DNA of 64,000 nucleotides from Flavobacteriales bacterium (GTDB lineage Bacteria; Bacteroidota; Bacteroidia; Flavobacteriales_G; Salibacteraceae), in contig JAGQYO010000009.1 of NCBI GenBank assembly GCA_020435995.1, forward strand, positions 1 through 64,000, written 5' to 3'. Shown one piece after another: positions 7,911 through 9,770 of the stretch. The notes beneath the pieces were generated by a model that was not told where the DNA came from, made no database searches, and saw only the letters and a program-made list of their open reading frames with translations. Every line of letters begins with the position of its first letter. Position 1 is the stretch's first letter. The translations under genes and the position numbers were made by a program.

Positions 7911-7948
7911 GTGGATGTTGGATGTTGGATTTTAGATGCCTGCCCGAC
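7911..7948. repeat. TTGGAT-rich interspersed repeat, copy 1
   Basis: Short tandem TTGGAT units run into a GCCTGCCCGAC core. The same arrangement occurs between the two helicase genes (16589-16620). Both copies are intergenic and lie near predicted promoters. Confidence 0.55.
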
Positions 7949-8026: not shown

Positions 8027-8644
8027 GTGGAAATCCCTTCAAAACATCTTCAACAAGCGGTAGACGCCATCAACACCCTGCCTGGCATTGGAAAGAAAAC
8101 AGCTCTAAGGCTTGCGCTTAATTTATTGCGGAGAAAACCCGAAGAAGTACAGCATTTTGCGCAATCGATTGCTGATATGAAGGAGCATGTAAAATTTTGT
8201 TCTCAATGCGGTAATTTATCGGACGGTGACTTATGCGCTATATGTATTCATCCCAAACGAGACCAGAGTTTGATTTGTGTGGTGGAAGATATCCGCGATG
8301 TTCTTGCCATTGAGTCCACCCAACAATACCGAGGTTTGTACCATGTGCTTGGTGGAATTATTAGTCCAATGGACGGCATTGGCCCCAGTAATTTGAATAT
8401 GGCTTCGCTGGTCGACCGATGTGCGAATGAAGATATAAAAGAAGTGATTTTAGCACTTAACTCCACCATGGAGGGTGACACCACCAGCTTTTACATTTTT
8501 AGAAAACTCAGTGGCCTGGAGGTCACCATTTCTACGCTTGCAAGAGGTGTAAGTATTGGCGACGAAATTCAATATGCCGACGAGATCACCCTTGGTAGAA
8601 GTTTAATGCACCGTACGCCTTTTGAGCAAACCATGAGCCGATAG
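8027..8644 (+). CDS. recR: Recombination protein RecR
   Basis: A 205-residue RecR, of normal length. An N-terminal helix-hairpin-helix (INTLPGIGKKTALRLA, residues 15-30) is followed by the C4 zinc finger with Cys58, Cys61, Cys70 and Cys73. A Toprim domain from about residue 81 carries VVEDIRDV, and a Walker-B-like LALNSTMEGDTT segment follows. RecR works with RecF/RecO to load RecA on gapped single-stranded DNA coated by SSB. The start is GTG; there is no ATG nearby and the frame matches the family N-terminus. The GTG follows a -7 box by only four bases. A glycosyltransferase gene begins one base after its stop, so they are probably co-transcribed. Confidence 0.97.
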   Translation: MEIPSKHLQQAVDAINTLPGIGKKTALRLALNLLRRKPEEVQHFAQSIADMKEHVKFCSQCGNLSDGDLCAICIHPKRDQSLICVVEDIRDVLAIESTQQYRGLYHVLGGIISPMDGIGPSNLNMASLVDRCANEDIKEVILALNSTMEGDTTSFYIFRKLSGLEVTISTLARGVSIGDEIQYADEITLGRSLMHRTPFEQTMSR

Positions 8645-8645
8645 C

Positions 8646-9770
8646 ATGAAGGTTCTGCTCATCGAACCGTTTTTCTCAGGCTCTCATAAAAAATGGGCAG
8701 AAGAATACCTGCGTTTTTCGAGTCACGAAGTTAAACTGCTAACCCTTCCCGGAAAGCACTGGAAATGGCGTATGGAAGGTGGAGCAATAAAACTAGCCGA
8801 ACTTTACCTGGAGATGTTATCCACTCCTGATGTCATACTTACCACAGATATGCTCAACCTGACCCTGTTTCAATCATTAACCAAAACACAACATATTCCT
8901 GCAGTGCTTTATATGCACGAAAACCAACTGACCTACCCATGGTCGGAAGGTGATAAAGAGAAAAAACACAACCGAGATTTTCATTACGCATTTATCAATT
9001 ATACTTCGTGCTTGGCGGCAGATTATATTCTTTTCAATTCTGAATATCACCGCCTCAGTTTTGAAAATGAATTACCTCGCCTTTTAAATATGTTTCCTGA
9101 CAACCGCGGACTGCAAACCGTGGCAAAAATTAGTAAAAAGAGCCGCGTTGTCCCTATTGGAATTGATCTAGAGAAATTACAAAAACGTGTGACCAAAAAA
9201 GAGAATCGAATCCCCATCGTCCTGTGGAACCATCGATGGGAATACGACAAAAATCCCATTGAATTCTTTAAAACTTTAGAAGAATTAAAAAACGAGGGAA
9301 TTGAATTTCAACTGGTTGTACTTGGTGAACACACGACTAACTATCCCGAAGTTTTCGATGCTGCGAAAGCAACTTTTGAAAAAGAACTGCTTCATTGGGG
9401 CTATTGCGATAATCCAAATGATTATATCGAATGGCTATGGAAATCGGATGTTCTCCCAGTTACCTCGTATCAAGATTTTTTCGGTATTTCGGTGGTTGAA
9501 GCCATGCTTTGCGGCGTGTACCCGCTTTTACCTCATCGGCTGGCATTTCCCGAGCATTTGCCCACTGAATTAAAAGCAGCTCATTTGTATGCAGACAAGG
9601 ATGAGTTGAAATCGAAGCTCAAAAGAGTGCTTATTGAGAAACCACCGATAAACAGTACCATGAAAATATATTTAGAGAAGTATGATTGGAGATTTGTGGT
9701 AAAGGAGTTGGACACCACCCTGTCGAACCTGAGTTCAACTAAGCATGGCCACCAGATTATTGCGCCATAA
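8646..9770 (+). CDS. tRNA-queuosine alpha-mannosyltransferase-like glycosyltransferase (DUF3524/QTMAN)
   Basis: A 374-residue protein. The N-terminal domain (MKVLLIEPFFSGSHKKWAEE, then LPGKHWKWRMEGGA, then HENQLTYPW) is characteristic of DUF3524, the family of animal GTDC1, recently identified as QTMAN, which adds mannose to queuosine at position 34 of tRNA-Asp. The C-terminal half is a GT-B/GT4 nucleotide-sugar domain: VLWNHRWEYDKNP, then DFFGISVVEAMLCGVYPLLP, with the Glu of the EX7E region. The family assignment is strong. Tyrosine-free use of mannose and tRNA as substrates is inferred from the eukaryotic protein and is not shown by sequence. It lies one base downstream of recR and overlaps a convergent gene by 14 bases. 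Confidence 0.85.
   Translation: MKVLLIEPFFSGSHKKWAEEYLRFSSHEVKLLTLPGKHWKWRMEGGAIKLAELYLEMLSTPDVILTTDMLNLTLFQSLTKTQHIPAVLYMHENQLTYPWSEGDKEKKHNRDFHYAFINYTSCLAADYILFNSEYHRLSFENELPRLLNMFPDNRGLQTVAKISKKSRVVPIGIDLEKLQKRVTKKENRIPIVLWNHRWEYDKNPIEFFKTLEELKNEGIEFQLVVLGEHTTNYPEVFDAAKATFEKELLHWGYCDNPNDYIEWLWKSDVLPVTSYQDFFGISVVEAMLCGVYPLLPHRLAFPEHLPTELKAAHLYADKDELKSKLKRVLIEKPPINSTMKIYLEKYDWRFVVKELDTTLSNLSSTKHGHQIIAP

Follow-up and report, generated by a model that had tools for sequence, protein, structure and literature searches.

A QTMAN-family glycosyltransferase from a Flavobacteriales bacterium, and its association with queuosine in bacteria that make or apparently salvage it

Introduction

Queuosine (Q) in tRNA is known to carry further decorations in both animals and bacteria. 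In animals, the tRNA-queuosine mannosyltransferase QTMAN (GTDC1) is responsible for mannosyl-queuosine (manQ), the mannose of which is alpha-linked (PMC8654956; PMC12518689). The tRNA-queuosine galactosyltransferase QTGAL (B3GNTL1) also places a sugar on tRNA Q, but on tRNA-Tyr and at another hydroxyl. GluQ-RS (YadB), the glutamyl-queuosine tRNA-Asp synthetase, is the enzyme known to modify Q34 further in bacteria; it adds glutamate by aminoacyl-tRNA chemistry and is unrelated to QTMAN, from which it differs in both fold and family. A 2024 review places manQ and galQ in vertebrates and gluQ in bacteria. The literature that we searched names QTMAN in animals, in reviews and in pathway catalogues, and it held no report of bacterial manQ and no mention of DUF3524. 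Bacterial proteins are already included in the Pfam family PF12038, so bacterial membership of the QTMAN family is already implicit there.

Here we describe a gene of this family in a Flavobacteriales bacterium (assembly GCA_020435995.1). It lies in what we call the window, the whole stretch of 64,000 nucleotides that was analysed (contig JAGQYO010000009.1, positions 1 to 64,000). The window's protein and animal QTMAN have in common the QTMAN_N domain of PF12038 and a GT-B domain, as well as a host with a TGT that places a Q-type base in tRNA, the sequence likeness being drawn through the Pfam family. On the other hand, the window's protein is bacterial, and its host makes Q via QueA, whereas the hosts of animal QTMAN salvage queuine. 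Because QTMAN nearly always co-occurs with the queuosine machinery across genomes, some bacteria probably decorate their tRNA with a sugar, like animals.

The gene and its product

The gene occupies positions 8646 to 9770 of the plus strand, begins with ATG and encodes 374 amino acids. Directly upstream on the same strand lies recR (8027 to 8644; TIGR00615, 239 bits with a cut-off of 163), whose stop codon ends a single base, 8645, short of the ATG. Further upstream of recR, a TGGATGT tandem repeat of about 4 copies spans positions 7912 to 7938.

Residues 2 to 173 (8649 to 9164, plus strand) match the complete PF12038 model (positions 1 to 168 of 168) with an E value of 3.9e-58 and 196.4 bits, the cut-off being 25. 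The present Pfam name of this family is QTMAN_N, tRNA-queuosine alpha-mannosyltransferase N-terminal, and we take it to be the former DUF3524. Residues 180 to 297 (9183 to 9536, plus strand) form the C-terminal donor domain of a GT-B enzyme, as indicated by Glycos_transf_1 (PF00534, 46 bits) and by Foldseek matches to retaining GT-B structures. An E value of 4e-58, together with the presence of the family in 53 of 198 genomes of the window's phylum and in none of 14 control genomes, excludes a chance match. A sequence-only reading of the window had described a DUF3524 signature joined to a GT-B domain, one base downstream of recR, in a bacterial homologue of the animal tRNA-queuosine mannosyltransferase; the profile matches, the predicted fold and the spacing agree with this description, the homology resting on PF12038 being QTMAN_N in Pfam.

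NCBIfam provides no equivalog for this protein, and equivalogs of envelope-polysaccharide GT4 enzymes (HpsP, EpsE, TuaC) reach at most 31.8 bits with cut-offs of 400 to 550. Low scores of this kind, against models of polysaccharide and teichuronic-acid glycosyltransferases, would suit a GT4-type enzyme of some other pathway (envelope polysaccharide, a glycolipid or a small molecule), related to QTMAN by descent only and associated with TGT through lineage history. All of them fall far below cut-off, whereas the N-terminal domain is a full-length QTMAN_N of 196 bits, and we regard an enzyme of another pathway as unlikely, with further points on both sides coming from the genome comparisons below.

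Predicted structure and motifs

An AlphaFold2 model of the product, built with 38 homologues, is a complete two-domain GT-B structure (pLDDT 91.2, pTM 0.88). Its nearest solved structures by Foldseek are glycogen synthase, GlgM, PimA (with GDP-mannose), PglA, MshA and BshA, all of them retaining GT-B enzymes, with TM scores mostly of about 0.66 to 0.73 at about 15% identity. A profile search for solved relatives returned only generic GT4 enzymes, mostly across the donor domain, and neither single-sequence search nor fold comparison found a solved relative of QTMAN beyond generic GT4. PimA, WlaC, BshA and MshA share with the window's protein the retaining GT-B fold and the R/K and E-x7-E donor motifs, but they are only about 15% identical, act on other acceptors and are without the QTMAN_N sequence signature. 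A retaining GT-B enzyme would fit the alpha linkage of the mannose in animal manQ, provided that the sugar here is the same.

Among 85 homologues, W41, R42, H91, N93, W194, N195, R197, W198, D201, G252, F279 and other residues are conserved at 97% or more. H91 and N93 belong to the HENQ motif (residues 91 to 94; 8916 to 8927, plus strand), which, judging by this conservation, is probably the acceptor-side signature of the QTMAN family. On the donor side, R197 to K202 (RWEYDK; 9234 to 9251, plus strand) align by profile with RLDHNK of the solved WlaC (6eji), and R197 and K202 are predicted, from the role of their counterparts in GT4 enzymes, to bind the nucleotide-sugar pyrophosphate; the second QTMAN copy of the Balneolaceae type has R in place of K202. 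Alignments place D277-x7-E285 (9474 to 9500, plus strand) at the E-x7-E motif of retaining GT4 enzymes, whose role it would share. The window's clade has Asp at the first place of this motif, where most other clades have Glu.

Queuosine genes in the same genome

A single QTMAN gene is present in the window's assembly, which spans 3.76 Mb and is 98.9% complete. The sequence-only reading had looked to queuosine synthesis or salvage genes in the same genome for support and to a missing tgt for refutation, and two such genes are present: a TGT (C65:55578-56657, 531 bits) with a canonical preQ1 pocket (DECTPY, GGLSVGE), and a full-length QueA (C131:10466-11503, 444 bits). QueC was not found in this 98.9% complete genome, where the best match scores 22.8 bits to part of a 662-residue frame; import of preQ0 or preQ1 is therefore probable. 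GluQ-RS (TIGR03838) has no match above cut-off in this genome, and the one match below it is presumably a glutamyl-type tRNA synthetase. QueA occurs in 197 of the 198 genomes of the phylum, so that TGT and QueA in this genome alone say little, and a co-occurrence test inside the phylum is uninformative for the same reason.

Distribution across phyla

QTMAN is patchily distributed in the window's phylum, its 53 genomes belonging to 25 of 103 genera. Other records come from Desulfuromonadota-type bacteria, Marinimicrobia, KSB1, Calditrichota, Krumholzibacteriota, Planctomycetes, Verrucomicrobia, Omnitrophota and Chloroflexi. When QTMAN genomes of about ten phyla are taken together, QueA is present in 45 of 47 and TGT in 64 of 69, and most Q-bearing genomes are without QTMAN. 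No QTMAN was found on plasmids or viral contigs, and the matches in phages were confined to the generic glycosyltransferase domain, at 27% identity.

GluQ-RS scores above cut-off in 4 of the 198 genomes of the phylum, three of which also have QTMAN. Mutual exclusion of the two enzymes through competition for tRNA-Asp is rejected on these counts, and the two Q decorations appear not to be mutually exclusive. Fifteen genomes of one family (f23), which we judge to be Balneolaceae by named matches, have two QTMAN paralogues that are about 40% identical (L053/L054, L055/L038, L040/L039). The second copy usually adjoins mutL, and the two paralogues might serve different tRNAs or sugars.

Several QTMAN genomes gave no detectable TGT. 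Four of these are incomplete-looking metagenome-type assemblies (G205, G217, G221, G235). Two others, G147 and G195 (L047, L063), which we take to be Salinibacter-like, are closed or nearly closed and have both QTMAN and QueA; TGT was not detected by Pfam and BLAST in G147, or by BLAST in G195 with a query TGT that appears to be of the Rhodothermus type. The QTMAN gene of G195 contains an in-frame stop and a one-base frameshift, which support loss of need; the dN/dS of 0.16 between the G147 and G195 genes, indicative of purifying selection, points to recent function. These genomes may have lost TGT recently, with QTMAN now decaying; a TGT may have gone unrecognised; or QTMAN may have another use there. 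The retention of QTMAN in these two genomes and its patchy occurrence are consistent with an enzyme of another pathway. For the proposal of the sequence-only reading that bacteria glycosylate Q34, the outcome is divided: Q34 as the acceptor fits the co-occurrence across phyla, but two closed genomes have QTMAN with no detectable TGT, and in one of them the QTMAN gene is broken.

QTMAN in Chloroflexota

The Chloroflexota supply the strongest evidence. In this phylum, where QueA is found in 126, TGT in 162 and QTMAN in 21 of 201 genomes, all 21 QTMAN genomes have TGT, while QueA is present in 7 and absent from 14. Among QueA-less genomes, QTMAN occurs in 14 of 37 with TGT compared with 0 of 38 without it (naive Fisher p = 1.1e-5), a p-value that ignores kinship and overstates the evidence, as most QueA-less cases belong to a single lineage, with 11 TGTs in one subfamily. 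The QTMANs of QueA-less genomes occupy at least three positions in the tree (the main clade, G363 and G323), which leaves few independent events. That QTMAN tracks TGT among QueA-less genomes argues against a glycosyltransferase of another pathway, as does the absence of a recurrent polysaccharide cluster around QTMAN in the neighbourhoods examined.

The TGTs of QueA-less QTMAN genomes (11 inspected) have a pocket of the queuine type, with GGSLG for GGLSVG, Leu for the pocket Cys and an insert of roughly 20 residues, and all inspected QueA-positive TGTs have GGL[SA]VG. The queuine-type pocket is typically GG[LS][AS]G (PMC10723273); GGSLG has the decisive Gly in common with it but differs by Leu at the fourth position. 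The GGSLG subfamily (L176-L186, L194, L234:9807-11054) is found in QueA-less genomes, 11 of the first 12 inspected having QTMAN, and most of its members also show DELPPF and a 20-residue insert after FQVFSL. A second type of TGT in QueA-less Chloroflexota (L196-L208) has a queuine-like GGLAGDE pocket and occurs in genomes without QTMAN, so that QTMAN cannot be predicted from a queuine-type TGT alone.

G363, whose QTMAN falls outside the main QueA-less lineage, contains an operon (L234:8761-14212) of Q_salvage (PF10343, Qng1-like), a GGSLG TGT, an ECF S-like component, a CbiQ-type T component and an ATPase, which from its gene content is an apparent queuine salvage operon. In G377 (L183), TGT adjoins an ECF transporter. 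Nearly all Chloroflexota genomes tested lack QueC, so that precursor salvage of some kind is general there.

The presence of Q_salvage in two of the 14 QueA-less QTMAN genomes (G323, G363) would suit a role in storage or salvage, with queuine, queuosine or a Q nucleotide in free form, and not Q in tRNA, as the target. We consider a free target improbable, because Q_salvage is absent from 12 of these 14 genomes, QTMAN also occurs in QueA-bearing genomes, the window's included, and tRNA is the substrate of the animal enzymes that have been characterised (PMC12518689). QTMAN occurs in makers of Q and in apparent salvagers of queuine alike. What these have in common is Q34 in tRNA, and the case for this acceptor rests mainly on that. 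QTMAN thus follows queuosine, whether made or salvaged.

Genomic neighbourhoods

No Q genes recur beside QTMAN in the neighbourhoods examined. Its neighbours in other genomes include mutL, comF-like and unrelated genes, and the adjacency to mutL was set aside as a clue, being local to the Balneolaceae-type copies. In this genome recR and the QTMAN gene are probably co-transcribed, but a role tied to RecR and recombinational repair is scarcely credible, as recR lies beside none of 115 related QTMAN loci (flanks searched up to about 8 kb) and the gene keeps other company elsewhere. The adjacency, rejected as a functional clue, is operon economy only, as had been suspected from the sequence, and a functional link is not indicated.

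Proposed function

We conclude that the window's gene encodes a retaining GT-B (GT4-type) enzyme of the QTMAN family, which most likely transfers a hexose onto Q34 of a GUN-anticodon tRNA. The activity, acceptor, sugar and tRNA that we infer for it can be set in the following pathway. PreQ0 or preQ1 would be imported, as the missing QueC suggests, and TGT would insert the imported base into tRNA. QueA, followed by the reduction of epoxyqueuosine, would then yield Q, and the QTMAN-family enzyme would glycosylate Q at wobble position 34 on a hydroxyl of the cyclopentenediol. The donor would supply a hexose, probably mannose from GDP-mannose, and, if animals are a guide, the GUN-anticodon tRNA may be tRNA-Asp. 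Where other bacteria salvage queuine directly, this enzyme would act after that salvage.

A broader picture can be put forward only tentatively, and we hold it to be possible rather than probable. Sugar-capped Q may be widespread in about ten phyla, both in builders of Q and in queuine salvagers whose TGT carries the V-to-G change, as in animals; animal manQ would then be a late example of a bacterial trait, and two diverged QTMAN copies in one genome would glycosylate two different Q-tRNAs or use two sugars.

If bacterial hexosyl-Q is real, it would be a new modification in bacteria, glutamyl-Q being the only known bacterial derivative in the literature searched, and sugar-modified tRNA would be older and wider than thought. 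Within the Chloroflexota, the apparent queuine salvagers that have the same enzyme as animals offer a natural comparison. The role of sugar-modified tRNA in decoding would then be open to study in simple organisms by simple knockouts.
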